From a bacterium (GTDB lineage Bacteria; Latescibacterota; Latescibacteria; Latescibacterales; Latescibacteraceae), in assembly GCA_021372535.1 (NCBI GenBank), contig JAJFUH010000228.1, forward strand, positions 1-53,873: a stretch of DNA of 53,873 nt, written 5' to 3'. Below are positions 7,702 to 53,873 of this stretch, piece by piece (the stretch's first letter is position 1; every line of letters starts with the position of its first letter). The position numbers were made by a program, and so were the translations under genes. Under the pieces are notes generated by a model. It searched no databases. It was not told where the DNA came from and was given only the letters and a program-made list of their open reading frames with translations.

Positions 7702-10700
7702 ATGAGATGTTATGATATGAAAAAGAAATTATTCATGGGTGCATTCCTGCTTTGCCGTTTACTGATCGATATCACCATTGCATACGGTATACCGGTCACC
7801 GGTTGGGTATATCTTGAAAATAAACAGGATTACAGCGGTATTTCAGTGTATTTAAACATGGTTACTCCTTCTTCTACTGTGAAATACATCGCTACAACCG
7901 ATTCGACAGGGATGTACTCGCTTGATGTGCAGTCCGGAATATATACGCTCGGTTTCAAGAAAACAGGGTACCGGGATTATACGTTTGAAAATCAAATATT
8001 AATAAGTGGTTATGCAGAATTGCCTGGAATTGTATTATTGCTGGCATATCCCAGGATTCTCAGTGTTCCCGCAGAATTCTCAAAGATTCAATCGGCAGTC
8101 AACATGGCTGTCAATGGAGATACGGTTCTTGTTTCACCGGGGAAATATGTCGGAAATGTCGATTTCAAAGGTAAATCCATAATTCTCGGCTCCCTGTTCT
8201 TTACAACCCGTGACACTACCTACATTTCACAGACCATAATTGACGCCGGCAGATGGGGAAGTGTCGTCGCGTTCAAATCCGGTGAAGATTCAACGTCGGT
8301 CATGGAAGGTTTTACCCTTACCAACGGTGCGTATTATAGTGATTACGGCGGAGGAGGAATATTATGTTTCAGTTCTTCTCCCCGCTTGTCGCATCTCATT
8401 ATTACCGGAAACTGGACTGCCCAGATCCAAAAAGAAAAACAAATCTGCGGAGGGGGAATTTATGCTTATAACTCCCATATGACACTATCGGATATAGTTA
8501 TTACAAACAATACGGGTTATAGCAATGGAGGCGGTATATACTGTTATGAATCCGATTTACGGTGTATAAACCTTACGGTGTCCAACAACAGCGCTAAAAC
8601 ATCAGGGGGCGGAATATACTGTGATAAAAAAAGCAACATGACAATTGAGAATTGTACGATAACCGGAAACGAGAGTTACTCTGGCGGGGGGATATTCAAT
8701 TATTCAAAAATGACAATTAGTAATTCGATAATTGATGGTAATACCGCCAGCATGTTCGGTGGAGGCATATATACCGGAGGTTTATCTTCCGATTTTTTAC
8801 ATATTTCTAATGCCGTTATAACAAAAAACAAAACACTCAATGACAGAGTCGACAATGTAAATGATTACAGCGGAGGCGGGGGTATTTTTTTACGTGGTAC
8901 TGTATTAACGTTGAAGAATGTGACAATCGTTGAAAATTATGCATGTATGAACGGTTGCGGAATCCATATTCGTGATTCGAATTCAAGGTTATATATGGAA
9001 AATTCCATCGTCGCTCATAACCGGGGGGATTATGGGATTTATGCAAAGGATGCATGTATCTATCAGATGCACTACTGTGATTTTTCCGGAAATGAAAAAG
9101 GTAACATCTTTAATAACTATTTCGAATCGGCTGAAGTCATTTCCCGGACCAACGCAAACGGTGATTCATGCGATCTGTACAACAATATATATCTCGATCC
9201 CATTTTTGACGACCACGCCGGGGGGGATTTTCATCTGAGTTCGTACAGCCCCCTCATCGGAGCGGGAACGGTGAATGATACACTGAAAACGGATATCGAG
9301 GGGAAACCGAGGGGAGAGCCGCCCGATATCGGGGCATACGAAAATCCTTCTTCTGCGCCCGATAAATCAGAGGTCATGGTTGACGGGAACGCGCTGCTTC
9401 ATGAACAGGACAATCACGAGGATATTACGGTTTCTTTTATCAATGACGACACTTCTCATGAGTACGGAAATATTACAACCAATATGAACGGCGATTTTTC
9501 GGTCAGCCTGAAACCGGGTAGATATAATATTTATTTCAGAAAAGACGGCTACTATGATAACATATGCTTCGATGTCGAAATAAATGGATCTTTAAGACTT
9601 GAACCGGTTGTACTGTACCCCCACAGTAAATTGCTGACGGTTCCATCCCCGGCATTTCGGACCATTCGTGCAGCGCTCGACCAGGCATCCCCCGGTGATA
9701 CCATTCTTGTAGCGGAAGGAACCTACCCCGAGAATATCGATTTCAACGGCAAATCTCTCGTTGTCGGCTCTCTTTTCCTGACAACGCAGGATACGACATA
9801 TATCCGCAAGACTGTTATCAGCGGGGAATTCACGGGTGATGTGGTCAACTTTGTAAACGGGGAAGATTCAACCTCGGTATTGACCGGTTTCACACTCACG
9901 AGCGGAATTAACAATAGAAATGTAATCTGCTGTAACAACTCGAATCCCATAATCAACAATCTTATAATCACACGGAATGAATACGATTCTTATAAAGGGT
10001 ATGGGATATATTGTAATAATGCAAGTCCTGACATTTCGAATGTTCTGGTCTGGGAAAATAATTCAAATGCGATGTATTTTGAAAATCATTCGAATCCGAC
10101 AGTGCACCATGTTACTTTGCATGAGGCAGAACATCCCTGGAGTCCTATGGGGAACAGTTATGAATTTCACGGGATTGTCTGCATGAACCAATCCAGTCCC
10201 CTGTTGACAGATATATTCTTTGATCATACAGCTGCAAGTAGTATTCAATGTATTGATCATTCTAATCCGACGATAAACCGTGTGTCAGTCATACGATGTT
10301 CTAGTTCGGGAATCTACTGTAAAGATTCAAGCCCTGTGGTAAACGACGTAACGATCATACGATGTTATTATGCGGGAATCTATTGTAACGATTCAAGCCC
10401 TGTGGTTGACGATGTAACGATACAAGATATATATGGGTACGAAGATGGTGCAGGTACAGGATTTTATTGTACCGGGAGTGAATCACACCCATACCTCAAT
10501 AATGTTAGAATAAGTGATTGTGAATCAACAGGTATACTATGTGATGAATTATCCGAGCCGGTGATAAACAATGTATTGATCACTCATGCAGGTAGTTCCA
10601 GTGAAAAACATTCGACAGGTATTTCAATCGTGGGATCATCTCGTCCTGTGATAAGAAATGTTACGATCACCGATATGAAACAGTCATTATCAGATTCTTA

Positions 10701-13017
10701 TGGAATTCGCTGCAGTGAAGATTGTATTCCCGATATTGCAAATGTCATTGTAACCGGTTCAGATTATGGTGTTTATAATGATGGTGGGAATCCACAGATA
10801 TCATATTCGTCCTTCAGTGATATGAATGAGGATATATTTTACGGTCTGCCTGAGTCTTACGGAGTTCTGACCGTTGTAAATGCAAACGGCGATTCATGCG
10901 ATTGTTTCTATAACATCTTTGGCGATCCCCATTTTACCGATGATTACCGGCTCCGCAATACGAGTCCCTGTATCGGCGCGGGAACGTCTCAAAACGCCCC
11001 TCCATACGATATCACCGGAGCTCTGCGAGGAACACCTCCCGATATGGGGGCATATGAGAATCCTGCTTTAAAACCTGTAATGGATTCGTTTATGGTAAGA
11101 GGATATGCGTATCTCAATGGGATGTTGTCGCACAGCGGCATTACCGTTTCATTCGTCAATGCTGATACATCGAAAGAGGCTGGCAGAACAACAACCAGTG
11201 AAAACGGCGAATATTCCATTTTTCTGAAATCCGGAACGTATACGATTAAATTCAGGCATCAGAATTTCTATGGTCAAGTTCTTTACGATATAAAAGTATA
11301 TAACGATATCACGGCCGAATCCGTGACGCTTTTAACCTGTATAATGGTGCCATCGGCAGAATACAAGACGATCCAGTCGGCAATCGATAATGTATTTCCC
11401 GGGGACACCGTCCTTGTCAAGGAAGGTATATATCCCGAAGAGATCGATTTCAAGGGCAAGAGTATCGTTGTCGGTTCGCTGTTTATGACAACACAGGACA
11501 CGACATACATCGGCAGGACAATCATCAGTGGCGGTGATTATGTTAGAACTGTGATTGCGGTCAGCGGAGAAGACTCGACATCGGTATTGAACGGTTTTAC
11601 GCTCAGAAATGATCATGGATTACGAAATATAATTTATTGTAAGAATTCGAGTCCCCTTCTCGAAAACCTCACCATTAGAAGTAAAGATGAAGATTCATAT
11701 TATGGTCTCGGTTTATTTTGTTATAATGCCAGTCCGATTGTTATGAACTTGAATAACGTTGCAGGGTACGTGATTAATGCTTTTCAGATAGACGAACACT
11801 CCAATCCGCGAATTACAAACTCCATAATCAAAAGCGGCGGCATAGAAATAACCAACGGTTCATGCCCGGTAATATCCGATGTTATCATCCACGCATCCTC
11901 TTCTTATGGCATCAGATGTGTCAATTCTAATCCCGTATTCAACCGGGTATCGATTTTATCATACAATGAGGTCGGAGTGTACAGTTTTTATTCCGATATC
12001 GTCGCGAACGATATGGTAATAATTGCGAATCATGGAAACAGAGAAAAAGAAACCATCGGTATATACTGTTCCGGATCGTCGTGTCATCCAAAATTCAACA
12101 ATATCGCCATACGGTACAATAATTCATATAATGCAATGGGAATCTGTTCAAGCGGTTTTACCGGAATTAAATGTCTTTTTGCCAGCGATCCGGTGTTTTC
12201 AAATGTTGTGATATCTCATTTCGGCGGTGAAAATGTAGTTCAGGGTATGGAAATAAAATATGCGGAACCGATAATAAGGAATGTTACCATTGCCGATGTT
12301 GTCAAGCCCGGAACGGATTGTTACGGAATACGTATCAGCGGAGTATGTGTACCCGACATTGCAAATGTGATTATAACCGGCACCGATTACGGCATCTATA
12401 ACGAAGGAGGAAGTCCGGCGGTATCGAATTCGGCATTCTGGGACATCAAAAAGGAAGTCTTTTACGGAATGCCCTCAGCCGCCGGTATTGTATCGGGTGT
12501 CAACGCTAACGGCGATTCGTGCGATATTTCCGGTAATATTCTGAAAGACCCGCTTCTCTTCGATGACTTCCGTCTTCCGGATTCCAGTCCCTGTATCGGT
12601 GCCGGGACACCTGAAAAAACCCCGTTATTCGATATTACCGGAGCTCCGAGAGGAACACTTCCCGATATGGGGGCGTACGAGAATCCTCTCGAACGGCCTT
12701 CCTACTGGACGGGAATAAACGCGGAAGATGATCTGCCGGAAACACTGTATCTGTATCCCTGTTCGCCGAATCCGTTCAATCTGTCCACCACGATTACCTT
12801 TGCGCTTCCTGCTGACGGGTACGTTCATTTGACGATATTCAATATCGAAGGCCAGAACGTCCGTGAGCTTGTCGCGGACAGGTTACAGGCGGGAAAGCAC
12901 CATGTCATATGGGATGGGAAGGATGATCGGGGCGCGGTCGTTTCGTCGGGAATATATTTTCCGCACCTGGCGATGGACAGCAAGGTGACAGCCGGTAAAA
13001 TGCTGCTGATAAAATAA
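7702..13017 (+). CDS. Giant surface protein: three duplicated beta-helix modules plus FlgD-like sorting domain
   Basis: A 1771-residue exported protein. The likely start is the ATG at 7717 (MKKKLFMGAFLLC signal peptide), although 7702 is in frame. Three tandem modules of about 550 residues end near 552, 1120 and 1660. Each has a carboxypeptidase-regulatory-like beta-sandwich (G.V...N....ISV, Y.V.L.SG.YT..F), then KTIQSAIDN..PGDTVLV..G.Y...IDF.GKS..VGSLF.TT.DTTYI, a parallel beta-helix, and a closing SPCIGAGT...DITG..RG..PDMGAYENP. The C-terminal ~90 residues (LYLYPCSPNPFN...F.LP..G.V.L.IFNIEGQ.VREL) form a FlgD/T9SS-like sorting domain, suggesting cell-surface attachment. Probable role: polysaccharide binding or degradation, or adhesion. 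No catalytic residues are assigned. Confidence 0.9.
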   Translation: MRCYDMKKKLFMGAFLLCRLLIDITIAYGIPVTGWVYLENKQDYSGISVYLNMVTPSSTVKYIATTDSTGMYSLDVQSGIYTLGFKKTGYRDYTFENQILISGYAELPGIVLLLAYPRILSVPAEFSKIQSAVNMAVNGDTVLVSPGKYVGNVDFKGKSIILGSLFFTTRDTTYISQTIIDAGRWGSVVAFKSGEDSTSVMEGFTLTNGAYYSDYGGGGILCFSSSPRLSHLIITGNWTAQIQKEKQICGGGIYAYNSHMTLSDIVITNNTGYSNGGGIYCYESDLRCINLTVSNNSAKTSGGGIYCDKKSNMTIENCTITGNESYSGGGIFNYSKMTISNSIIDGNTASMFGGGIYTGGLSSDFLHISNAVITKNKTLNDRVDNVNDYSGGGGIFLRGTVLTLKNVTIVENYACMNGCGIHIRDSNSRLYMENSIVAHNRGDYGIYAKDACIYQMHYCDFSGNEKGNIFNNYFESAEVISRTNANGDSCDLYNNIYLDPIFDDHAGGDFHLSSYSPLIGAGTVNDTLKTDIEGKPRGEPPDIGAYENPSSAPDKSEVMVDGNALLHEQDNHEDITVSFINDDTSHEYGNITTNMNGDFSVSLKPGRYNIYFRKDGYYDNICFDVEINGSLRLEPVVLYPHSKLLTVPSPAFRTIRAALDQASPGDTILVAEGTYPENIDFNGKSLVVGSLFLTTQDTTYIRKTVISGEFTGDVVNFVNGEDSTSVLTGFTLTSGINNRNVICCNNSNPIINNLIITRNEYDSYKGYGIYCNNASPDISNVLVWENNSNAMYFENHSNPTVHHVTLHEAEHPWSPMGNSYEFHGIVCMNQSSPLLTDIFFDHTAASSIQCIDHSNPTINRVSVIRCSSSGIYCKDSSPVVNDVTIIRCYYAGIYCNDSSPVVDDVTIQDIYGYEDGAGTGFYCTGSESHPYLNNVRISDCESTGILCDELSEPVINNVLITHAGSSSEKHSTGISIVGSSRPVIRNVTITDMKQSLSDSYGIRCSEDCIPDIANVIVTGSDYGVYNDGGNPQISYSSFSDMNEDIFYGLPESYGVLTVVNANGDSCDCFYNIFGDPHFTDDYRLRNTSPCIGAGTSQNAPPYDITGALRGTPPDMGAYENPALKPVMDSFMVRGYAYLNGMLSHSGITVSFVNADTSKEAGRTTTSENGEYSIFLKSGTYTIKFRHQNFYGQVLYDIKVYNDITAESVTLLTCIMVPSAEYKTIQSAIDNVFPGDTVLVKEGIYPEEIDFKGKSIVVGSLFMTTQDTTYIGRTIISGGDYVRTVIAVSGEDSTSVLNGFTLRNDHGLRNIIYCKNSSPLLENLTIRSKDEDSYYGLGLFCYNASPIVMNLNNVAGYVINAFQIDEHSNPRITNSIIKSGGIEITNGSCPVISDVIIHASSSYGIRCVNSNPVFNRVSILSYNEVGVYSFYSDIVANDMVIIANHGNREKETIGIYCSGSSCHPKFNNIAIRYNNSYNAMGICSSGFTGIKCLFASDPVFSNVVISHFGGENVVQGMEIKYAEPIIRNVTIADVVKPGTDCYGIRISGVCVPDIANVIITGTDYGIYNEGGSPAVSNSAFWDIKKEVFYGMPSAAGIVSGVNANGDSCDISGNILKDPLLFDDFRLPDSSPCIGAGTPEKTPLFDITGAPRGTLPDMGAYENPLERPSYWTGINAEDDLPETLYLYPCSPNPFNLSTTITFALPADGYVHLTIFNIEGQNVRELVADRLQAGKHHVIWDGKDDRGAVVSSGIYFPHLAMDSKVTAGKMLLIK

Positions 13018-25994: not shown

Positions 25995-27233
25995 CTATTC
26001 ATACCGGAGCGCTTCGATAGGCTCCAGTTCGGATGCCTTTTTTGCGGGCAGAAATCCGGAAATAATTCCAACGATAACAGAAACAAAGAAGGAAATAAAA
26101 ACGGAATATACGGTGACATTGGTATTGACATCGGTCACAAGCGATATGGATAACGAGATCGATAATCCAAAAAATACACCTATAAAACCGCCCGTAATAC
26201 TGATAATCATCGCTTCCGTGAGAAACTGAGTCAAAATATCTTTTTTCCTGGCGCCGATTGCTCTTTTAATACCGATCTCCCGCGTTCTTTCCATAACCGT
26301 CGCCAGCATGATATTCATGATGCCGATACCGCCCACCAGCAACGATATCGCTGCAATGGAACCCAGCAAAAAATTATAAATCCGGCGTTCTTTTTCTTCC
26401 TGTTTCAACAGTTCATACGGAATAATGATGCTGTAATCGTCATTTTCAAAATGGCGACGGATCAAAAGATTTTTAATAACGGCCGCAACTTCGAATAAAC
26501 ATTGTGAGTTTTCAGCTCTGATCGTTATCTGTTTAATTTCGCTCTCCAGTTCATTTTCTTTTATGAACCGACTGTTAAAAGTCGTCAGGGGAATATAGAT
26601 GTCGTTATTGAGGTCTCTGGAAGCCAGCTCGCCCACCGTTTCGGTGAATAACGATTTGTTTCGCATGACACCGATAACTTCAAGCCATTGATCTTCCACT
26701 TTTATGCTTTTACCAATCGGCTCCTCGAAGGGGAATAACTGTTTGGCTATCGACGATCCCAGAACGCATACCTTGAGCTTCCGGTCGTAATGATCTTCAT
26801 TGATGAATATGCCTTTTTCCGCAGAATAATTCAGTATGTTCTTGATATTGGGGGTAATACCGATAATGCTTGCCTTGCCGGATTTGTCCTCGTATTTCGC
26901 TTCCGTATCTTTCTCCGTTTGCGGTGCGACATCAAGCACCGAAGGGATGATTTCCCTGATCGCATTCGCATCGGCAATCGATAATCCCTGAGAGAACTTT
27001 GCGCGTGTTTCTTCCAAACCCTCATCGCTGAGGTTCTTATCTCTGATAATGATGTTATTTACACCCAGTTCCTTATACTTGGCGATGGCTGACTGCTTTG
27101 CGCCCTCACCCACCGATAACATGGCGATGACGGCTGCAACACCGAAGATAACGCCCAGCATCGAAAGAAACGATCTGAATTTACGCTGGAGTAATTCGCT
27201 GAAAGAAACGTGTATGTTTTCTTCTAATTGCAC
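25995..27233 (-). CDS. MacB/FtsX-type ABC transporter permease
   Basis: About 412 residues from a GTG at 27233. It has an N-terminal helix in FRSFLSMLGVIFGVAAVIAML, a MacB periplasmic core (about 60-260), and three C-terminal helices with REIGIKRAIGARKKDILTQFL and PAKKASELEPIEALRYE, all typical of the family. The open frame extends to 27293, but those 20 residues are encoded by a dispersed intergenic repeat (accacgaagacacaaagaca on the plus strand), so I prefer the GTG, where the family's usual start (E-N-I-x-V) begins. It is the last gene of the operon with three membrane fusion proteins. Partner ATPases of this type are separate proteins, and none is encoded nearby. Likely role: efflux, or mechanotransmission of an exported lipid, peptide or lipoprotein. 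Confidence 0.9.
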   Translation of the reverse strand: MQLEENIHVSFSELLQRKFRSFLSMLGVIFGVAAVIAMLSVGEGAKQSAIAKYKELGVNNIIIRDKNLSDEGLEETRAKFSQGLSIADANAIREIIPSVLDVAPQTEKDTEAKYEDKSGKASIIGITPNIKNILNYSAEKGIFINEDHYDRKLKVCVLGSSIAKQLFPFEEPIGKSIKVEDQWLEVIGVMRNKSLFTETVGELASRDLNNDIYIPLTTFNSRFIKENELESEIKQITIRAENSQCLFEVAAVIKNLLIRRHFENDDYSIIIPYELLKQEEKERRIYNFLLGSIAAISLLVGGIGIMNIMLATVMERTREIGIKRAIGARKKDILTQFLTEAMIISITGGFIGVFFGLSISLSISLVTDVNTNVTVYSVFISFFVSVIVGIISGFLPAKKASELEPIEALRYE

Positions 27234-27265
27234 TTTTATTTCCGGCCCGGAATATTCATGAAAAT

Positions 27266-27297
27266 ATTCAACCACGAAGACACAAAGACACAAATAT
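27266..27297. repeat. Dispersed 'cacaaagacacaaa' intergenic repeat
   Basis: The string accacgaagacacaaagaca plus trailing caaatat lies between the permease and membrane-fusion-protein genes. A near match (caccacaaagacaccaagac) lies at 35618. It creates a false N-terminal extension of the permease frame. Confidence 0.6.
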
Positions 27298-27335
27298 CTA
27301 TAACATATTATTTATACTGCTTTTAGTAAATAAAA

Positions 27336-28721
27336 TCATATACCTTTCTGCGCAGATTCATTCAATGCCACTTCACTCAACGGTATTACACTCTGACCTT
27401 TTGTGAAATCTCCATAAATGACGGTGTATTCATTGTTGCGGGGTCCTATGTCGATCTCGCATTTTTCGTAATCCTCTTTTTCCCCGGTAAAAATATAGTA
27501 TTTCATCTTTTCCTTCATGATGCAGTCGTTTGAAACATATAAAACGTCATCGAGCTGAGCGATAAAAATCTCGCATCTGACAGTCATGCCGGGCTTCAAT
27601 ATTGGGTCGGATTTGTCCAGCATAACGACAAAATCGAACACTTTCGTTCGTGATTTTTCATCTTTTTTATAACTCAGCCTGCCGATCTCGATGATTGTAC
27701 CTTCGAAGGGGATTGATGGAAAAGCATCGAGCCGGACCATTACTTTTGCATTCAATTGTATTTTGCCGATATCCGTTTCATTCACCGTAGATTTCACTTT
27801 CATCCGGCTCATATCCGGGACACAGGCAAATTGTCCGCCCTGATATAATTCATCGCCCACTTTTACCGTCTGATTGGTTCTCCTGTTTTCAAGGAGCTGC
27901 ATCATCCCGTTCAGCGGACTTCGTATCGTCAGCTGTGTCAATGCGGTGTACGCGTCATTTATATCATTTTCCAGCTGAAATATTTTTATTTTCTGAATTT
28001 TCAATTCGTTTTCAAGAACAACCTGTGTCAGCTGGTAGTTTTTTTCCGCTTTGTTATATCTTATAAGTTCTCTTTCGTATTCGAGTTTTTTGATCTCTTT
28101 CTTTTTTTCCGATTCAAATTCATACTTATCCAATTGTATTTTGTTGAGATTTAAAACGGCCCTGCTTGAAGCAAGCTCTGTTTCCAGTGCTTTCACGGTG
28201 CTTTTATGCTGTACGATCAGCTTATTGAGATTGGCCTGTTCGGTTTCCAGTCTGTTCTGCTGTTCGACAAGAAATTTCAGCACACCATCCCTATCTATCT
28301 GGGCTATTGAATCACCCATGGAAACCTGGGTGCCATGTTCCACAAGTTCCACAAGTTTCATCTGCCAGCCATATTTCCATCCAATATACGGAATAGAAAC
28401 AATGCGGGAATTTACCGCTTCCAACTCTCCGGTTTCATTGAGTGTTGCAATAAATTCACCTTTATTGATCTTATAATTCCGCACATCTTTTGCCGATCCG
28501 CCAAAAAGCCACAATACAATACAAACTGTCAGAAAAACCATAACAGGCAGTATGATTTTAAGAGGGCGGTTCCGAAGCATTGTTTTCACACGTCCGACAA
28601 CGAAACGTAATGAGGTACCGCTGTCAGGGGCATGCAAACCGTCATCATCCCGTGACGGCTGCTGAGAGCTTAAAACCATGCTTACCAGGTTTTTCACCAG
28701 GCTTTTAAATCTTATTCTCAT
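27336..28721 (-). CDS. HlyD/MacA-type membrane fusion protein with repeat-derived N-terminus
   Basis: 461 residues. Residues 1-54 are a cytoplasmic extension (FKSLVKNLV...GLHAPDS...VKTMLRNRPL) homologous to the dispersed repeat at 7195 and 35699. One membrane helix (about 56-75) follows, then a lipoyl-like half, a long coiled-coil hairpin (about 135-245, rich in Leu/Glu/Lys), the second lipoyl half and beta-barrel (VNETDIGKIQLNAKVMVRLDAFPSIPFEGTIIEI), and a membrane-proximal domain. It overlaps the upstream gene by 17 bases and precedes the permease. Such adaptors link an inner-membrane pump to an outer-membrane channel. It has no good Shine-Dalgarno; translation is probably coupled to the upstream gene. 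An alternative start without the repeat would be near Met15. Confidence 0.9.
   Translation of the reverse strand: MRIRFKSLVKNLVSMVLSSQQPSRDDDGLHAPDSGTSLRFVVGRVKTMLRNRPLKIILPVMVFLTVCIVLWLFGGSAKDVRNYKINKGEFIATLNETGELEAVNSRIVSIPYIGWKYGWQMKLVELVEHGTQVSMGDSIAQIDRDGVLKFLVEQQNRLETEQANLNKLIVQHKSTVKALETELASSRAVLNLNKIQLDKYEFESEKKKEIKKLEYERELIRYNKAEKNYQLTQVVLENELKIQKIKIFQLENDINDAYTALTQLTIRSPLNGMMQLLENRRTNQTVKVGDELYQGGQFACVPDMSRMKVKSTVNETDIGKIQLNAKVMVRLDAFPSIPFEGTIIEIGRLSYKKDEKSRTKVFDFVVMLDKSDPILKPGMTVRCEIFIAQLDDVLYVSNDCIMKEKMKYYIFTGEKEDYEKCEIDIGPRNNEYTVIYGDFTKGQSVIPLSEVALNESAQKGI
28560..28712 (-). repeat. Diverged copy 3 of the structured repeat, inside a coding region
   Basis: The 5' end of the membrane fusion protein gene aligns with copies 1 and 2 over about 150 bases: TTTAAAAGcCTgGTGA..., then AAGCT.TCA..., then TGCATGCCCcTGACAGC. 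The outer stem is only partly kept here, but CCGTCA...TGACGG forms an inner hairpin. The peptide reading is conserved with the 7189 ORF. Confidence 0.7.
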
Positions 28722-29937
28722 TGTTATTCATTTTCTTTTTATTCACATCGATAAAAGGATCGGACAAGGCAATTACATCCCCCTCTTCCAATCCTTTTTC
28801 AACAATAATAAAGTCATTATTCGCCACCCCGACTTTCACTTCGGTTTTTTTATACGAATCGCCGTTTTTCAAATAGACAAAATCTTTATTCTGGTCTTTG
28901 ATTATCGCTTCCAGGGGTATGAACAGGACATTGTCGATTGTATCGACAATGATTTTGCAGCTCACCGTTATTCCGGGCATTAAATTTTTTGAGGTTCCTT
29001 CGATCAGTATTCTTACCGGAAAGATTTTAACTTTCGATTTTTTTTCTTCATCCTTATACTTTGCCAGTGCGGCGATTTCTATCACTTTACCGGTATATAC
29101 GGTATCCGAAAAGGCATCCAATTGAATATCGACCTTCTGGTTCAGTTTGATTTTTGAAATATCAACCTCGTTGATTTCCGTCTCTGTTTTCAATTCCCGA
29201 AGGTCCGGCAGATCGATCAACGGCATTCCCGACCAGACCTGATCGCCAACCTGACATTTATTGCCGGTACTCCAGTTTTTACGAATAATTGCGACACCGG
29301 CGCTTCGACTGATTATCACCAAATTCTTTAATGTTACATTCGCCTCCGCTAAATTACTCACCAGCTGTTTGATTTTCAATTCGGACTGATGCTGTTCCTC
29401 CTTATGTATGTTCTTCTGGTTCTCGATTTCATCTTGTGCCTTATCAAGAGAAATTTTCGCCTGTTCCAAAGTGAGCCTGATCTCTTTCTTTTTAACATCT
29501 GATTCGTATGTTGTGAGCTCCAGCTCGATCTGAGATATCTGATGAGATATTTCAAAAACCTTCAAATCCGCTTCCAGCTCCTGTATTTTCGAATCCTGTA
29601 CGGCTTTCTGTTTCTCGAGCTCAGCTTTGGCAATTTCGAGCTCGGCATTGGCGTCTATAATCGCTTTCTGAACTTCCGACGGATCGAATACAATAACCGT
29701 ATCTCCTTCCGCAACCTCCGTGCCGTCGTCGATAATTTTCGTAATTTTCAAGGCACCGAATCTCCACGACATCGCAGGAGAGGAAATATTGATCGATCTC
29801 GTTGCCTGTACTTCTCCGGTTTCGACGACGTTGATATGAAACTCGCCCTTTTTCGCCTTGTATGTCTGAACGCTGCTTTTTGTTTTAGGGCTGCAGCATA
29901 CAAAGAGTAAAAACGAAATGAACAGTAATTTTTTCAT
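28705..29937 (-). CDS. Membrane fusion protein (HlyD/MacA type), probable lipoprotein
   Basis: 410 residues. The N-terminus MKKLLFISFLLFVCCSP looks like a lipoprotein signal with a two-Cys box, so it is probably anchored by lipid rather than by a helix. It has a lipoyl half (about 35-85), a coiled-coil hairpin (about 90-190, with ELEKQKAVQDSKIQELEADL), the second lipoyl half, and the shared beta-barrel motif INEVDISKIKLNQKVDIQLDAF. The C-terminal domain ends in VEKGLEEGDVIALSDPF. It starts 1 base after the stop of the upstream paralogue and runs 17 bases into the next one, so the three adaptors are translationally coupled. Adaptor role as for its neighbours; substrate unknown. Confidence 0.9.
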   Translation of the reverse strand: MKKLLFISFLLFVCCSPKTKSSVQTYKAKKGEFHINVVETGEVQATRSINISSPAMSWRFGALKITKIIDDGTEVAEGDTVIVFDPSEVQKAIIDANAELEIAKAELEKQKAVQDSKIQELEADLKVFEISHQISQIELELTTYESDVKKKEIRLTLEQAKISLDKAQDEIENQKNIHKEEQHQSELKIKQLVSNLAEANVTLKNLVIISRSAGVAIIRKNWSTGNKCQVGDQVWSGMPLIDLPDLRELKTETEINEVDISKIKLNQKVDIQLDAFSDTVYTGKVIEIAALAKYKDEEKKSKVKIFPVRILIEGTSKNLMPGITVSCKIIVDTIDNVLFIPLEAIIKDQNKDFVYLKNGDSYKKTEVKVGVANNDFIIVEKGLEEGDVIALSDPFIDVNKKKMNNNENKI

Positions 29938-29938
29938 A

Positions 29939-31162
29939 TTATTTATCTTTCATCAGTAGTAAATTTTCAGGAGGTTCGGCTAATATTATTTCCTCATTTC
30001 CCTTCAATCCCTCCGCGATAACCGCATAATTATCGCTGTTACACGCTACTTTTACCGTCTGTCTCAGGAATTTTTCACCCTCGGAAATATACACGACTTT
30101 CAGGCTGTCTCTTCCAAAAACCGCCAGTAAAGGCACAACGAGCGTATCGGGAATCGATTCTATGATGACATCACAGGTTACGGACAATCCCGGCTGTATT
30201 TTAAAATGAGTGCTGTCGATCGAAGCAAACACCTCGAAAAAGTTCACTTTGGAATCTTTCTTTATCGGTTTTCCCATGGGTGTTTTTTTCGTTATTTTCC
30301 CTGTCAGCATTATTTCGGGAAAGGCATCTATTCTTATATTGACGATCTGATCCTTTTCAATCTGTTTAAAATGGGTTTCATTTACCGTTAATTTTATCGT
30401 CATCGAAGACATATCCGGGATGCTTATTATGGGCAGATTACCCCATACGATATCGCCTTCTCTGATTTTATTACCGGTGGTCCATGACATTGCATACGTC
30501 ACCATACCGGCAGTCGTCGATGTAAGCACCAGTTTATCGAGCTGCTCTTTCTGACGGGCGACATTGTTTTCCGCCTGTTTTATTTTCATTTCCATTTTCT
30601 TCAATTCGGATGTGTTGATAACCTTCAAAAATTCAAGCTTTTTCTGAATTTTTTCTTTCTCGACTTCGGCTTTTTCGATTTTCAGCTCAATCAATTCTCG
30701 CTGTGCCCGTGAAGTGAAGGCAATCTTGGAGGAGTCCAGACGGGAGATTTCGGCGGATGATTCTATCGTTTTGACCTGAGATTCCAGAAGCAGGTACTGC
30801 AGATTGAGATCGGCGACAGACTTATTATATTCCGCTTTCGCATTTTCAAGGTTTTTGACGGCTTCATCATAGCTATTTTTCAGTTCGCTGGCCTGAAGAA
30901 TACAGACCGTGTCTCCTTCATCAACATATGTTCCTTCGTGAATCAAATATGTAATGGTTGCATCGGTCCAGATTCCGGGGCATGTGACCGAATATGTTTT
31001 AGTCGCTTCAATAATTCCGGAAGTGGTTATTTTATTGACAAATTCCGTTCTTTTGACCTGATGTCTGATGAAAGTATTACTCCGATTCCTCGAAGAACAG
31101 GACACATACAGAAAAAAGAGTAAAAGGGCCAGAAAAAAATATATACCGTTAATTCGCGTCAT
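29939..31162 (-). CDS. Membrane fusion protein (HlyD/MacA type), first of three
   Basis: About 407 residues from the ATG at 31162 (MTRINGIYFFLALLLFFLYVSCSS), which gives a lipoprotein-like signal ending in Cys; the frame is open to 31216. A coiled-coil hairpin lies at about 85-200. VNETHFKQIEKDQIVNIRIDAFP is the beta-barrel motif shared with the two downstream adaptors. The C-terminal VIAEGLKGNEEIILAEPP matches their ends. It is the first gene of the operon that finishes with the MacB-type permease. Upstream lies a 660-base non-coding region. The three adaptors are clearly paralogous but only about as alike as distant family members, so a mixed hexamer is possible. Confidence 0.88.
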   Translation of the reverse strand: MTRINGIYFFLALLLFFLYVSCSSRNRSNTFIRHQVKRTEFVNKITTSGIIEATKTYSVTCPGIWTDATITYLIHEGTYVDEGDTVCILQASELKNSYDEAVKNLENAKAEYNKSVADLNLQYLLLESQVKTIESSAEISRLDSSKIAFTSRAQRELIELKIEKAEVEKEKIQKKLEFLKVINTSELKKMEMKIKQAENNVARQKEQLDKLVLTSTTAGMVTYAMSWTTGNKIREGDIVWGNLPIISIPDMSSMTIKLTVNETHFKQIEKDQIVNIRIDAFPEIMLTGKITKKTPMGKPIKKDSKVNFFEVFASIDSTHFKIQPGLSVTCDVIIESIPDTLVVPLLAVFGRDSLKVVYISEGEKFLRQTVKVACNSDNYAVIAEGLKGNEEIILAEPPENLLLMKDK

Positions 31163-47059: not shown

Positions 47060-48784
47060 ATGGATAAAAACTTTTTCATCGCAATTCTCCTGACCGTTCT
47101 CATCATTATCGTATACACTTCTCCTCAGTATCAGAAGCGTTTCGGTAAAGCATTTACCCGTGCGCCACAAGTTGAAACATCGCAGACCGACAGCCTTCAA
47201 ACCTCGGTACCTCCGCAACAGACAGCGGTACAACCTCGACAGGCACCGTCAGCCCTGAACACGCCGACCGTTCAGGCTCCCGTTCAGGAAAAAACGGTAC
47301 AGGATACAGCCTTTGCACAGATTAACGCGCCGGACCGTGAAGAAACAACGATTCTCAAAAACGACGACATAACGGTGGAACTGTCATCGAGAGCGGGTGC
47401 GGTTATTCAGGCAACAATGAATAAATATATAGGTTTGAGTAAAGATGAGAATGTACGCCTTGTCACCAATGGCCAACAATTCTGTACGGGAACAATTCGC
47501 GACAATGACGCGGTAATCGATTTATCGAACATTCTTTTTACCATTACGGACCATACTGATAACCGAGTGACTTTTATCGCAGAACTTACAAACGGCAAAC
47601 GAATCATCAAAGAATACACTCTCGATGCAACCGGTTACATGCTCCATACAGTGACAACGCTCGATGGACAGTGGAGCGACCCGGAACTCTCGTTTTCCTG
47701 GCTCGGTCCTCTGAACAATACCGAAGAACCGACCCGTCAGATCAGGATATGGCCGTTTACCATGTTCATGCGTGATGATACAACCTTATACAACAAAATT
47801 TCGTATCTCGGACAGGGTGACAGGATAGTAAAAGAAGAAGGGAAAAAAACCAAAACAATACGGGCATATTCCAAAGAGGGCGCCCAAAAACTCGAGGTGA
47901 AAAAAGACAAGCCTGTCTATGACACGTTCAAAGGCGACCTCGACTGGTTCGCAATAAGAAACAAATATTTCATGACCGCGGCAATACCGAAAGACAACAA
48001 ACGCTGGCAGGCGGAATCGAACGGTTTTCTCGTCGACGGTTCCAAATGGTTCAACTTCACCATTTCAAAGCCGACTTCCGCCGGCAATACGGCTCTCGAT
48101 ATTTACTTTGGCCCCATTTCGTTCGATACGCTCAAGAGTTACAATTCAAACCTCACAGAAATCATGGAATTATCCTGGCGGTTCATACGGCCGATTTCGA
48201 TCGCATTTTTGTGGACTATAAAGAAGATGTACAAGGTCATTCCAAACTGGGGCATCGTTATTATTGTTTTCTCGGTACTTATAAAAATCGTCCTCTATCC
48301 TCTCTCGAAATCGAGCCTCAGCTCGATGAAGAAAATGTCAAGCCTCCAGCCTCAGATAAACGAGCTCAAAGATAAATTCAAAAACAATCCCCAGAAACAG
48401 CACCTCGAAATGATGGCGCTCTATAAAAAGGAAGGCATCAATCCCCTCGGCGGATGCCTGCCCATGCTTTTGCAACTTCCTGTATTCTTTGCACTTTACC
48501 CCGTTGTAGGCCGTGCGTTTGAGCTCAGGCAGGCGATGTTTATTCCCCATTGGATCGCAGACCTTTCGCGCCCCGATCCATTTTACATTTTACCGGTTGC
48601 CATGGGAATCTCGATGTATTTCCAGTCAAAGGATACCATGAAAGACCCAAACCAGAAACCCATGCTCTATATCATGCCGGTCATGATGGTCATTCTGTTT
48701 GCAAATTTCAGCTCGGGCCTCACTCTCTACTGGTTCATGTTCAATATTCTCACATCACTGCAGCAGAAATTCGTAAAACTCTGA
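47060..48784 (+). CDS. yidC: Membrane protein insertase YidC
   Basis: 574 residues, the long Gram-negative form. It has an N-terminal helix (FIAILLTVLIIIVYTS), a Pro/Gln/Thr-rich linker (about 35-85), a large periplasmic beta-domain (90-370) and five C-terminal helices with WGIVIIVFSVLIKIVLYPLS, NPLGGCLPMLLQLPVFFALY and FANFSSGLTLYWFMFNILT. It inserts and folds inner-membrane proteins with or without SecYEG. It is translated from an ATG 6 bases after yidD. The long periplasmic domain supports a diderm host. Confidence 0.97.
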   Translation: MDKNFFIAILLTVLIIIVYTSPQYQKRFGKAFTRAPQVETSQTDSLQTSVPPQQTAVQPRQAPSALNTPTVQAPVQEKTVQDTAFAQINAPDREETTILKNDDITVELSSRAGAVIQATMNKYIGLSKDENVRLVTNGQQFCTGTIRDNDAVIDLSNILFTITDHTDNRVTFIAELTNGKRIIKEYTLDATGYMLHTVTTLDGQWSDPELSFSWLGPLNNTEEPTRQIRIWPFTMFMRDDTTLYNKISYLGQGDRIVKEEGKKTKTIRAYSKEGAQKLEVKKDKPVYDTFKGDLDWFAIRNKYFMTAAIPKDNKRWQAESNGFLVDGSKWFNFTISKPTSAGNTALDIYFGPISFDTLKSYNSNLTEIMELSWRFIRPISIAFLWTIKKMYKVIPNWGIVIIVFSVLIKIVLYPLSKSSLSSMKKMSSLQPQINELKDKFKNNPQKQHLEMMALYKKEGINPLGGCLPMLLQLPVFFALYPVVGRAFELRQAMFIPHWIADLSRPDPFYILPVAMGISMYFQSKDTMKDPNQKPMLYIMPVMMVILFANFSSGLTLYWFMFNILTSLQQKFVKL

Positions 48785-48817
48785 TCCACGATTCACCTAT
48801 GCTCACGGAACTATCCC

Positions 48818-50164
48818 ATGCTTCACTACAGCGGTGAAAGCGATACGATTGCCGCTCTTGCGACAGCCCCCGGTAAAAGCGGTATAGCAGTTGTAAAATT
48901 GAGCGGCCCGCATTCGGTCGACCTCATGCGCATTCTGTTTAAAAGCACAAAAGACCCCGGTACATACGAACGAAACATGGTATACGGCCACATAGTCGAT
49001 GAGCATGAAAATATCGACAATGTACTCGTCTGCGTCATGAAATCGCCGCGATCCTATACCGGGGAAGATGTTGTCGAGATTCAGAGCCACGGCGGTTCTG
49101 CGGCTGCGGGAACGATCCTCAGAATGCTCGTCGAGGCCGGGGCACGGATAGCCGAACCGGGAGAGTTTACCAAACGGGCTTTTCTCAATGGCAAGCTCGA
49201 CCTCGCCCAGGCGGAAGCTGTCATGGAAATCGTCGCCGCCGAAGGCCGTGAATACCTGAGACAGGCGGAACGTCTCCGTGACGGCGCTTTTTCAAAAAGC
49301 CTCATGGCCCTGCACGATACTCTCCGGGAATGCGCATCACTTGTCGAATTAAACCTGGATTTTCTCAGTCAGGATATCGAAGCAATCGGGGACAGCGACC
49401 TCATTCTCTCGCTCGACACGGTTATCGAAAAACTCGATGCCATGATTTCCTCGTACAGCGCCGCGCGAAGAATCAAAAGCGGGATAACGGTCATCATTGC
49501 CGGTGCGGTTAACACGGGGAAATCGACCCTTTTCAACACTCTGCTCGGTAAAAAACGCGCTATTGTCAATCCTTCTCCCGGAACGACCCGTGACTGGATC
49601 GAGGAAAAAATCGAGCTTGAAGGAATTCCGGTCAACCTCATCGACACCGCCGGAATCCGTGAAACACCCGACACGATCGAACGTGAGGGCGTTCTTGCAA
49701 CAGAGCAACTTCTCGCTACCGCAGACATTATTCTGTACCTGAGAGATGCCAGTAATATTCTTCAAATGGGATCAAATACCACAAGCGGAGACGACCGTTA
49801 CATTCACATCATGTCAAAGGGCGATCTTGTAGAGAATCCATCAGAAAATCCCGGCTGTCTATTGATTTCCGCACGAACGGGCCGTGGAATCGACGCTCTG
49901 ATCGGAGCAATCGCAGAACGGACGCGAACGACGATATCGACTGCTTCAACCGATTCCCTCGTTATCGTGGAACGTCACCATGCGGAGCTTGTAAAAGCTC
50001 GTGAAGCGCTTGTCCATGCCAGGTCGAGCATCGGCACATGGTCTGAAGAGATTATTTCGATGGAAATCCGTGAAGCGCAGCACCATATTGAGTCCATACT
50101 CGGAAAAAACATCGATATGGATGTGCTCGACACCATTTTCAAAAACTTCTGCATCGGAAAATAA
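48818..50164 (+). CDS. mnmE: tRNA uridine-5-carboxymethylaminomethyl modification GTPase MnmE
   Basis: 448 residues with an N-terminal tetrahydrofolate-binding domain (TIAALATAPGKSGIAVVKLSG, EIQSHGG, GEFTKRAFLNGKLDLAQAEAV), a helical domain, and an inserted G domain. P-loop GAVNTGKST is at 229-237, switch GTTRD and DTAGI. The essential C-terminal Cys445 lies in FCIGK. Oddities: the usual GxPNxGKS has Val in place of Pro, and G4 reads SKGD where NKxD is standard. With MnmG it modifies the wobble uridine of tRNAs; mnmG is not in the window. It follows yidC by 33 bases. Confidence 0.96.
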   Translation: MLHYSGESDTIAALATAPGKSGIAVVKLSGPHSVDLMRILFKSTKDPGTYERNMVYGHIVDEHENIDNVLVCVMKSPRSYTGEDVVEIQSHGGSAAAGTILRMLVEAGARIAEPGEFTKRAFLNGKLDLAQAEAVMEIVAAEGREYLRQAERLRDGAFSKSLMALHDTLRECASLVELNLDFLSQDIEAIGDSDLILSLDTVIEKLDAMISSYSAARRIKSGITVIIAGAVNTGKSTLFNTLLGKKRAIVNPSPGTTRDWIEEKIELEGIPVNLIDTAGIRETPDTIEREGVLATEQLLATADIILYLRDASNILQMGSNTTSGDDRYIHIMSKGDLVENPSENPGCLLISARTGRGIDALIGAIAERTRTTISTASTDSLVIVERHHAELVKAREALVHARSSIGTWSEEIISMEIREAQHHIESILGKNIDMDVLDTIFKNFCIGK

Positions 50165-50170
50165 TCCCTC

Positions 50171-50186
50171 TGTTTCACGTGAAACA
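50171..50186. promoter_or_regulatory. parS site 1
   Basis: TGTTTCACGTGAAACA, a perfect 16-bp palindrome equal to the bacterial ParB-binding consensus. It lies 6 bases after the mnmE stop codon. ParB loads here for chromosome segregation; parA and parB themselves are not in the window. Confidence 0.93.
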
Positions 50187-50253
50187 CCAGGTCTTATAAA
50201 GCACGGAGTGTCATTCCCATGAAAACGGAAATCCATAATCCAATGGACAATAA

Positions 50254-50275
50254 GAGCAGTCACGGGGAACTGCTC
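50254..50275. repeat. REP-like palindrome between the parS sites
   Basis: GAGCAGT-cacgggga-ACTGCTC, a 7-bp stem with the same loop type as the other REPs. The G-to-A change in the left arm is matched by C-to-T in the right arm. A degraded 'CATTCCC...GGAAATCC' repeat precedes it. Confidence 0.75.
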
Positions 50276-50498
50276 CAACAGGTATAACAATAGCATGACC
50301 GTAATTTATAGTGACGATAACGCGTCGTTTTTTAACACACTGATAATGAGCCTGAATCTCATACCTAACCACCTGTACCATTTGTTTTACGTCGTTCTCG
50401 CATAATTTTCCTGCTGAAGCGCGTTATATGACATCGCTTTCATTTTTTATTTTTATGTATTACTCTTTTTTTTATCCTACAATTCCGGGAAATGGTTT

Positions 50499-50514
50499 TG
50501 TTTCACGTGAAACA
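50499..50514. promoter_or_regulatory. parS site 2
   Basis: A second perfect TGTTTCACGTGAAACA, 328 bases from the first. The 474-base gap between mnmE and rsmG holds only the two sites, one REP and AT-rich sequence; no gene is seen. Confidence 0.93.
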
Positions 50515-50638
50515 TAATGCCCTTTCTTTTTAAATTTCTTCTCACCGTTGCGTTTTCCTGTTTTAAATGGTACATTTTCATTACATGTAATTTTCATATA
50601 TTTCCCAGGTCATTTAACCTTATCCCTGATGATCCAAA

Positions 50639-51301
50639 ATGATTGAACAATCCCTTTTTTACGATAATTTATATGCCGGCTCGTCCGAATATGGTGTTCC
50701 TCTTGACATGTCGGCTCTTTCTTCCTGCTGGAAGTATTATGAACTTCTTGTCTCATGGAACAGCCGTGTAAATCTTGTTTCTCAGCGCGATCTTGACCGT
50801 TTTATCGATTATCACATGCTCGATTCTCTTAAAATTGCATCTCTCTTCGATTTCTCGCGTGTCAGGACCATGATCGATTTCGGCAGCGGAGCCGGACTTC
50901 CGGGTATTCCTCTTGCTCTTGCCTTTCCTCATATTTCGCTTACATTGATCGATTCACGAACCAAACGGTGCGCGTTTCTCTCTGAGACCGTTTTTTCCAT
51001 CCCGCTTGGCAATACGGTGATTGTTCACTCAAAAATCGAATCTCTTCCCGTTCGGTATAACCGTGCATTTGATGTCGTTGTTACCCGCGCAACCGCATCG
51101 CTCGCTGATTTTGTTTCCAAAACTTCTCGTTTTATTCATGGAAAAGGGTCTCTTATTTCTATTAAAGGCGATCATATCGATAGTGAACTTTCCGCTCTCG
51201 ACCAAATTGTTGACAAACACCTTTTCAACATATCCGTTCATAGTCCGAAAGCGGTCGGATCGGTACGTCAAGGGACAGTCGTTATTATTTCGGGTGTATA
51301 A
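50639..51301 (+). CDS. rsmG: 16S rRNA (guanine527-N7)-methyltransferase
   Basis: 220 residues, typical length. It has an SAM-binding motif IDFGSGAGLPGIPLA (about 80-94), followed by LTLIDSRTKRCAFLSE, and the helical start WNSRVNLVSQRDLDRFIDYHMLDSL, which is diagnostic of RsmG/GidB. It methylates G527 of 16S rRNA. The gene is noticeably T-rich on its coding strand compared with mnmE. It stands between parS and the oriC-like stretch. No clear Shine-Dalgarno. Confidence 0.95.
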   Translation: MIEQSLFYDNLYAGSSEYGVPLDMSALSSCWKYYELLVSWNSRVNLVSQRDLDRFIDYHMLDSLKIASLFDFSRVRTMIDFGSGAGLPGIPLALAFPHISLTLIDSRTKRCAFLSETVFSIPLGNTVIVHSKIESLPVRYNRAFDVVVTRATASLADFVSKTSRFIHGKGSLISIKGDHIDSELSALDQIVDKHLFNISVHSPKAVGSVRQGTVVIISGV

Positions 51302-51493
51302 GTTATTAACAATCGTCTTCTATATATTGAATTATGTATGTTTTTGTATTACAACTCTTTATAAAATACAGGGCTTTTTTTTCAACACTTATTAACATGT
51401 TTTCAACACATATTTTTTCCTTATTTTACGGTCGTTTCTGACCATGTTTCAACTCATCATGAAAAATAACTTTTCAACAGTTTTCAACACCCT
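51302..51493. other. Candidate chromosomal origin (oriC-like)
   Basis: 192 non-coding bases. The first ~70 are very AT-rich (possible unwinding element). They are followed by TTTTCAACA boxes at 51379-51387, 51400-51408, 51471-51479 and 51481-51489, and a weaker TGTTTCAAC near 51445. All have the same orientation, and the last two are 10 bases apart. The box differs by one base from TTTTCCACA, a known relaxed DnaA-box form of TTATCCACA. Two parS sites lie 0.8-1.2 kb away. The box identity is my inference; DnaA is not encoded here. Confidence 0.65.
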
Positions 51494-52198
51494 ATGGAAA
51501 TGTTAAAATCTCACGGTATCCTGTACATTGTTTCCACACCCATTGGTAATATGGGCGATCTCTCGTCACGTGCTCTCGAGTGTTTACGCGCAGTCGACAT
51601 TGTCGCATGCGAGGATACGAGACATACCGGTCTTTTGTTCTCACGGCTCGGATTCAGGAAAAAACTTGTATCGTATAATGATGTCAATGCGCTGAAACGT
51701 CTTCCCCAGCTTATCGAGCATCTCATGAACGGTGAAAATGTCGCGCTTGTTTCGGACGCCGGTACTCCCGGTATCAGCGATCCGGCATACCGCATCGTCC
51801 GGGCCGCTCTCGATGCCGAAGTCGATGTTATCAGTATCCCCGGGGCTTCTGCCGTTCTTTCGGCGCTCGTCGTTTCCGGACTTCCGCTCGACCGTTTCGT
51901 GTTCGATGGTTTCATTCCACCGCGCGAGTCTGCCCGCGCCTCACGGCTCGAATACCTCAAAGATGAATCCCGCACGATCGTGCTCTTTGAATCTCCGCAC
52001 AGAATCATCGCTCTTCTTGAGTCTGTCCTTGTTCATCTCGGCAATCGTGAAATTTCAGTATCCCGTGAACTGACAAAACTTCACGAGGAAACTGTCCGCG
52101 GCCCTGTCGAGGATGTTCTGGCCCGTTTAAAAACCAAGAAACCCCGCGGCGAATATACTGTCGTTATCCGTGGCGTCGGCAAGAAAGGCATTGTATGA
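51494..52198 (+). CDS. rsmI: 16S rRNA (cytidine1402-2'-O)-methyltransferase RsmI
   Basis: 234 residues. Typical tetrapyrrole-methylase-type signatures are present: LYIVSTPIGNMGDLSSRALECL, VACEDTRHTGLLFSRLG, LVSDAGTPGISDPAYRIV, VDVISIPGASAVLSALVVSGL and REISVSRELTKLHEE. It methylates C1402 of 16S rRNA. The start is ATG at 51494 or, two codons on, 51500; there is no Shine-Dalgarno because the upstream sequence is the TTTTCAACA repeat. It overlaps tmk by 4 bases (ATGA), so both are coupled. Confidence 0.96.
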   Translation: MEMLKSHGILYIVSTPIGNMGDLSSRALECLRAVDIVACEDTRHTGLLFSRLGFRKKLVSYNDVNALKRLPQLIEHLMNGENVALVSDAGTPGISDPAYRIVRAALDAEVDVISIPGASAVLSALVVSGLPLDRFVFDGFIPPRESARASRLEYLKDESRTIVLFESPHRIIALLESVLVHLGNREISVSRELTKLHEETVRGPVEDVLARLKTKKPRGEYTVVIRGVGKKGIV

Positions 52199-52818
52199 AA
52201 GGGCACCTCATCTCGTTTGAAGGAATTGACGGCTCCGGCAAGACAACACAGGCCGAACTCCTGTATAACCGTATCCTCAATCTTGGCCATACCGCCCATC
52301 TTTTCCGTGAACCGGGCGGAACCCCTGTCGGCGAGCGCATACGGTCCATTCTTCTCGATGCATCACATAGTGACATGATGCCCCTTGCCGAACTTTTTCT
52401 TTACCTTGCCGCCCGCGTTCAGATTACTTCCCGCAGAATTGCTCCTGCTCTCGGCGACGGCGCTTTTGTCATCATGGACCGCTATATCGATTCTTCCGCC
52501 GCATACCAGGGCTATGCACGCGGTCTCGGAGTCGATCTCGTTCATCATCTTAACTCCATCGCAACCGGCGGTCTTGTCCCCGATATCACGTTTTTCATTG
52601 ACTGCGACCCCCTGACAGCTCTATCACGTGTTTCTCCGACACCGGACCGTCTCGAATCCGAAGGGCTCGTTTTTATGGAACGTGTACGCGATGGTTTCCG
52701 CTGTCTCTGTCAATCGTTTGAAGACCGTTTTGTGCTTGTTGACGGGAATCGTTCTGTGAAGGAAATCGAGGAAACTGTCTTTGATGAAATCCGTAGAAGA
52801 GAGTTTTTACTGAAATGA
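52195..52818 (+). CDS. tmk: Thymidylate kinase
   Basis: 207 residues, usual length. It has a P-loop FEGIDGSGKTTQAE (about 8-21), REPGGTPVGERIRSILLD, and DRYIDSSAAYQGYARGL for dTMP and Mg binding. It phosphorylates dTMP to dTDP in the cytoplasm. The start overlaps the rsmI stop (ATGA). No gene of the classic tmk-holB order follows; the next gene is convergent. Confidence 0.97.
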   Translation: MKGHLISFEGIDGSGKTTQAELLYNRILNLGHTAHLFREPGGTPVGERIRSILLDASHSDMMPLAELFLYLAARVQITSRRIAPALGDGAFVIMDRYIDSSAAYQGYARGLGVDLVHHLNSIATGGLVPDITFFIDCDPLTALSRVSPTPDRLESEGLVFMERVRDGFRCLCQSFEDRFVLVDGNRSVKEIEETVFDEIRRREFLLK

Positions 52819-53645: not shown

Positions 53646-53755
53646 GATTTAGTTTCTACTGTTTTCAGGTGTAACTTTTTATAAATTACCATTGCTTTTC
53701 TTTCTTACAAAATATATTTTCCCAACATATGCAATAATATCATACGGAGACAAAC

Positions 53756-53873
53756 ATGAAATCTCATCCTTTTTGGGGAAATCCCTTTAACCGTGTATCT
53801 CGCGATCTTGAAAACGATATTGAATTTTTGTCGTCCGTGCCGATTTTTGATTCTCTTTCAAAACGTCAAAAAC
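53756..53873 (+). CDS. Partial CDS: probable cyclic-nucleotide-binding (CRP-type) protein
   Basis: 39 codons before the window ends: MKSHPFWGNPFNRVSRDLEN then DIEFLSSVPIFDSLSKRQK. The 'L-x-x-V-P-I-F-x-x-L-S' start is typical of cNMP-binding domains. GGAG lies 7-8 bases before the ATG. It may be a regulator or a domain of a larger protein; the rest is not visible. Confidence 0.6.
   Translation, partial: MKSHPFWGNPFNRVSRDLENDIEFLSSVPIFDSLSKRQK

Follow-up and report, generated by a model that had tools for sequence, protein, structure and literature searches.

A variant DnaA-box cluster between rsmG and rsmI as a candidate distal half of a split chromosomal origin in Latescibacterota

Between rsmG and rsmI, in a window of 53,873 nucleotides (the whole stretch of DNA analysed here, contig C228 of a 5.35-Mb draft genome in 236 contigs, labelled G000), lies a cluster of variant DnaA boxes that is real and for which chance is excluded. 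The 192 bp concerned (51302-51493) are very probably a part of the origin region that DnaA binds, and we consider it reasonably probable that they serve as the distal half of a split chromosomal origin, a half that does not itself unwind but cooperates with the gap between dnaA and dnaN. The sequence itself shows that the boxes exist, that they are clustered and conserved, and that a second box set, accompanied by DnaA-trios, lies at dnaA-dnaN.

A cluster of variant DnaA boxes between rsmG and rsmI

An earlier note on this DNA had described four exact copies of TTTTCAACA in one orientation, in a strongly AT-rich setting next to two parS sites and rsmG, and all of this was borne out. The copies start at 51379, 51400, 51471 and 51481 on the + strand, the stretch 51302-51493 is 73% AT (which places it in the top 1% of all 192-bp stretches in the window for AT content), and the parS sites are perfect 16-mers at 50171 and 50499. 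Two further boxes, TTATTAACA, each one mismatch away from TTTTCAACA, start at 51303 and 51389 on the same strand, and the boxes fall into two groups with a start-to-start spacing of 10-11 bp. A footprint alignment of four genomes of the family revealed conserved columns across the cluster. The features are as follows:

50171..50186, parS site TGTTTCACGTGAAACA, exact 16-mer
50499..50514, second parS site TGTTTCACGTGAAACA, exact 16-mer
50639..51301, + strand, rsmG; ORF with homologs to E 1e-73 in family members, named from the earlier note and synteny
51222..51230, + strand, TTTTCAACA within rsmG, a possible outlying box; coding, hence weak evidence
51303..51311, + strand, box TTATTAACA right behind the rsmG stop; AAGTTAT..ACA invariant in 4/4 family genomes
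51312..51378, AT-rich stretch without DnaA-trio; 77% AT, measured over 51302-51378
51379..51387, + strand, box TTTTCAACA, exact match
51389..51397, + strand, box TTATTAACA, 10 bp from its neighbour, inside a conserved block
51400..51408, + strand, box TTTTCAACA, 11 bp further; TCAACA invariant at this column in four genomes
51471..51479, + strand, box TTTTCAACA; TTTTC.AC kept in four genomes
51481..51489, + strand, box TTTTCAACA, 10 bp from its neighbour, exact match
51494..52198, + strand, rsmI, immediately 3' of the cluster; ORF, adjoining the cluster throughout the family
52195..52818, + strand, tmk; behind the cluster in the scored relatives, G044 excepted
53737..53873, + strand, CRP-like gene, 5' part, truncated where the contig stops; remainder at the end of the dnaA contig (C206), from its translation against the intact homologs in G001 and G003

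A single box is not rare in this genome, which holds 173 sites of TTTTCAACA, 91 of TTATCAACA and 166 of TTWTCCACA, and some TTTTCAACA sites are coding words, such as the one in mnmE at 49530. The cluster could accordingly be thought a chance repeat or a word derived from coding sequence. This is scarcely credible, given that the genome-wide rate predicts 0.006 copies of TTTTCAACA per 192 bp where four are found (P(>=4) ~6e-11, or ~2e-6 after whole-genome correction), that the footprint is kept in four genomes, and that tandem TTWTCAACA pairs (same strand, gap <=25) are confined to two places genome-wide, each of them within the cluster. None of 20,000 first-order Markov sequences built from the 192 bp contained four copies. 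Thus, the concern that the boxes might be equally common across the genome holds for the single word and fails for the tandem pairs.

The stretch had been called oriC-like, and this stands insofar as a genuine variant-box cluster sits in the origin region. It does not stand for a complete oriC, with boxes and unwinding element at one site: 51302-51493 is AT-rich, but a strict search for TAG-rich DnaA-trios returned no match there or anywhere else in the window, and the trios lie ~6.6 kb away at dnaA-dnaN.

dnaA lies about 5 kb downstream, on an abutting contig

The absence of dnaA, also remarked upon in the earlier note, turned out to reflect a contig break only. The genome encodes a single DnaA, close to the end of contig C206. 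A CRP-like gene that is intact in G001 and G003 is here divided between the window, whose last ORF is one part of it, and the end of C206 (reverse strand), which holds the other; since this gene spans both ends, the two contigs abut, and therefore dnaA starts ~5 kb downstream of the box cluster. In extended window coordinates, which hold to within a few bases at the joint, dnaA starts at ~56510, the trios lie at ~58047 and dnaN at ~58371, leaving several genes between the cluster and the trios. In G003, a relative of the family, a single contig carries gyrB-dciA-dnaN-dnaA, a corrinoid-protein gene, a permease-like gene, a small redox-like gene, tmk, rsmI, the cluster, rsmG and, further on, mnmE.

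Between dnaN and gyrB we observed a small dciA-like gene (L012 14053-14391), a candidate helicase loader named by eye; recF, which often sits between these two genes, was not seen there in L012.

The dnaA-dnaN gap carries a putative unwinding module

In all four family genomes, the gap between dnaA and dnaN contains TAG-rich trios followed, after 0-3 bp, by one or two TGTTGAWAA boxes, i.e., TTWTCAACA read on the other strand. The module of G001 reads TAGTAATAGTAATAG-CCA-TGTTGAAAA-TGTTGAAAA, and that of the window's own genome, with one mismatch, TAGTAATACTAG-AGG-TGTTGATAG-TGTTAAC; a strict search of 135 kb of the latter genome found such a trio-box module at dnaA-dnaN only. TTWTCAACA-type boxes are present, then, in the putative unwinding module of the window genome and three relatives as well as in the rsmG-rsmI cluster.

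A basal unwinding system has been defined as at least three trios no more than 16 bp from a DnaA-box (PMC8287927). Such an arrangement is present at dnaA-dnaN in the four family genomes and was not found in 51302-51493 under our stricter TAG-rich search. The dnaA-dnaN gap therefore appears to carry a basal unwinding system of the B. subtilis type, as it fits the published definition: TAG-rich trios, a 0-3 bp spacer and tandem boxes come in the published order, the difference being that the family's boxes are TGTTGAWAA (TTWTCAACA) whereas the published ones are of the TTATCCACA type.

These findings bear on whether the rsmG-rsmI stretch is itself the unwinding site and main origin, with the dnaA-dnaN boxes serving autoregulation only. 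The stretch is AT-rich, has the most boxes and adjoins parS, and in 4/4 family genomes the AT skew at fourfold sites of genes on the + strand shows a downward step from mnmE to rsmG. Nonetheless, we regard this explanation as very improbable: the stretch lacks trios, the canonical trio-box module lies at dnaA-dnaN in all four genomes, and the GC skew steps at dnaA/dnaN instead. As the AT and GC steps contradict each other, fine-scale skew was dropped as a means of choosing between the two sites.

On a larger scale, with the skew of relatives taken from sampled regions, coding-strand GC skew changes sign across the locus in G009, G019 and G056. In complete relatives the GC-skew flip falls at this locus; G009 and G019 both show it, and G019 has an opposite, noisy change at 3.3-3.6 Mb, half a genome from dnaA (0.38 Mb). 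The window's own genome has little skew, too weak and too fragmented to judge.

We also observed a strong pyrimidine excess at coding-strand fourfold sites in the genes between the two clusters (window 47060-52818 and its extension to dnaA through L012, L050 and L051). In the window's family (f1) it marks rsmG, rsmI, tmk, the permease-like gene and dnaA; yidC and mnmE, which lie just beyond, do not show it. The genes it marks in G009, G019 and G029 are yidC, mnmE and rsmG, and in G009 and G019 tmk and pgsA, just outside, are without it. The excess thus tracks position, not gene identity, in f1 and part of f3, and was not clear in G051, G032, G044, G056 or G020.

Two box clusters recur across the phylum

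We scored DnaA-box windows in 300-bp bins over 32-200 kb per genome in eight genomes drawn from four families (f1: G000, G003; f3: G009, G019, G056; f8: G032, G051; f9: G044). In all eight, the top two windows were dnaA-dnaN and a site beyond rsmG, before rsmI or a pgsA-like gene and usually tmk, and no other bin equalled the weaker of the two. The rsmG-side cluster was comparable in strength to the dnaA-dnaN cluster in every scored genome, and none of 60 shuffled consensuses attained its score. In G020, from a fifth family (f7), a plain box listing again gave these two groups. Judged by its box pattern, the two-cluster arrangement thus recurs across the little-studied phylum Latescibacterota, with a separation of about 6-12 kb (6.3-11.7 kb). 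No TTWTCMACA box was found just upstream of dnaA in any of the eight genomes, and only in G019 are two weaker sites present there, TTTTTAACA and TTATTAACA. In G002 the cluster is weak, with one TTATCAACA and two TTATTAACA.

Gene order indicates that the rpmH-to-tmk block beside dnaA is probably inverted in f1 relative to the other families, and a search with rsmI gave no homolog at the loci of the other families. In every scored relative but G044, the cluster is followed by two genes of which the second is tmk, an arrangement that would suit a promoter through which DnaA controls the operon behind it (rsmI-tmk here, pgsA-like-tmk elsewhere) and so ties dTTP supply to initiation, much as DnaA regulates nrdAB in E. 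coli (PMC8203912). We hold this to be improbable, because the first gene of the pair differs (rsmI versus a CDP-alcohol-phosphatidyltransferase-like gene) and G044 keeps the cluster though its tmk lies elsewhere, without a box window.

The box changed at both clusters

Origin boxes of f1 are almost exclusively TTWTCAACA, at both clusters. Relatives outside f1 carry mainly TTWTCCACA and few TTWTCAACA; the cluster of G009 has two TTATCAACA and the dnaA-dnaN gap of G056 two TTTTCAACA. That both clusters changed the box letter together argues independently for a single DnaA reading the two.

We aligned domain IV of DnaA to the entries 1J1V (E. coli) and 8BTG (B. subtilis). At the published base-contact positions (399, 423, 432-435 and 438-439 in E. 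coli numbering; PMC5043019), R399, K423, R432, D433, H434, S435, I438 and H439 are common to the family and to G009, G019 and G020, whose boxes mostly have C at position 6. Altered base-reading residues, which the earlier note had proposed to look for, were thus not supported as the cause of the box change, the contact positions being identical in relatives that use TTWTCCACA, some of them with a few TTWTCAACA boxes. Ser440 is a trait of the family, yet it also occurs in G004, whose dnaA-dnaN gap has TTATCCACC and no TTWTCAACA; nor is it required, since some Neomarinimicrobiota with Ala440 have single TTATCAACA sites by dnaA. The mollicute consensus, TT(A/T)TC(C/A)ACA (PMC3322544), likewise allows A at position 6, so that TTTTCAACA fits it, although the mollicutes, which are not related, have a mixture of C and A, whereas in this family the origin boxes have A almost throughout. 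As sequence, the box change is genuine, and simple tolerance of the mollicute kind would suffice to explain it.

A proposed split origin with widely separated halves

Bipartite origins usually keep their other half just upstream of dnaA. Here, we arrived at the reading that the two clusters are halves of one split origin because they outrank all other bins in 8/8 genomes and share their box type within the family; because trios adjoin TTWTCAACA-type boxes in 4/4 family genomes; because no TTWTCMACA box lies just upstream of dnaA in 8/8 genomes; because the rsmG-rsmI cluster is footprinted in four genomes and the contigs join; and because GC skew flips at the locus in complete relatives. DnaA would bind the same-strand boxes at rsmG-rsmI, about one helical turn (10-11 bp) apart, and oligomerise there; looping from this site would help DnaA at dnaA-dnaN to spread onto the trios, where the duplex would open. 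Forks would then begin at dnaA-dnaN, and the nearby parS sites would load ParB and thereby segregate the new origins. The f1 box, in turn, would have drifted from mainly TTWTCCACA to mainly TTWTCAACA in both halves together.

Bipartite oriCs (B. subtilis, C. difficile, H. pylori) likewise have two DnaA-box clusters. A precedent is C. difficile, in which unwinding at dnaA-dnaN beside the trios needs both clusters, and oriC1 is without a clear trio (PMC7561715); as in B. subtilis and C. difficile, the dnaA-dnaN cluster here has trios and the other has no clear ones. Two separate clusters were found in the origin region of 8/8 genomes, and a predicted unwinding element in one subregion, dnaA-dnaN, of 4/4 family genomes. 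The layout departs from known bipartite origins, which extend over ~2 kb at most and usually have dnaA as their spacer (PMC4285127): the second cluster lies beyond rsmG and not upstream of dnaA, 6-12 kb off across the phylum, and in the window's genome ~6.6 kb and several genes replace the single spacer gene. The family's TTWTCAACA box is a further difference. The distance speaks against a split origin, as do the weak cluster in G002 and the contradictory fine-scale skew between the halves; since the source says "usually" of the spacer, we take the distance to suggest a variant rather than an exclusion. B. subtilis, moreover, has a DnaA site close to oriC, upstream of trmE (mnmE), that is not regarded as belonging to oriC (PMC4447404), and this too counts against the split-origin reading.

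The chief rival explanation, possible though rather unlikely, is that the cluster is an oriC-proximal one that titrates DnaA or changes its nucleotide state, timing initiation without a role in opening. In E. coli, datA and DARS are sites of this kind. The lack of trios at rsmG-rsmI agrees with it, and no fixed short distance would be needed, which fits 6-12 kb. There is precedent in the six B. subtilis DnaA-box clusters outside oriC, whose joint loss leads to early initiation (PMC5295017), and in the trmE site, which lies in the same gene block. (A placement of that B. subtilis cluster at rsmG-noc was discarded, as PMC4447404 puts it upstream of trmE.) The B. subtilis sites resemble ours in that their boxes lie in the mnmE-rsmG block, a few kb away from oriC, and have no trios; ours differs in lying beyond rsmG and ranking among the two strongest clusters, and in that no TTWTCMACA box occurs upstream of dnaA. 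Two points weigh against titration: the usual partner half upstream of dnaA is missing, and the cluster is comparable in strength to that of dnaA-dnaN in every scored genome, which a mere titration site need not be.

Extending the split-origin reading, we tentatively propose, at less than even confidence, that throughout the phylum the two halves may cooperate across 6-12 kb of housekeeping genes without a consensus box just upstream of dnaA, and that one family may have kept the split despite an inverted block between the halves and a position-6 change at both. In the current picture, origins are one or two gaps within ~2 kb around dnaA. If the proposal is true, a conserved second cluster 6-12 kb off would extend this picture to an uncultured phylum, the question of why origins are split would become testable by comparison, and origin-prediction programs should search beyond rsmG and allow TTWTCAACA.

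Other observations at the locus and in the window

Both parS sites lie in the mnmE-rsmG gap (50165-50638, 474 bp), 0.8-1.2 kb upstream of the box cluster, and are the only two exact occurrences in the genome of the 14-mer parS core, GTTTCACGTGAAAC. Almost every relative scanned has parS or parS-like sites next to rsmG, and no parA/parB gene was found behind rsmG in the window's family.

A third, weaker box group was observed on contig C206 (L161, 11277-11470), with two TTTTCAACA and near matches, ~66 kb from dnaA and upstream of a transporter-like gene; it is possibly a DnaA-regulated or titrating site. Elsewhere in the window, two stretches of lower GC (7702-13017 and 26000-31000; ~0.37-0.45 versus 0.55-0.60 in their neighbours), one of which carries a 1771-aa ORF, are possibly acquired DNA.
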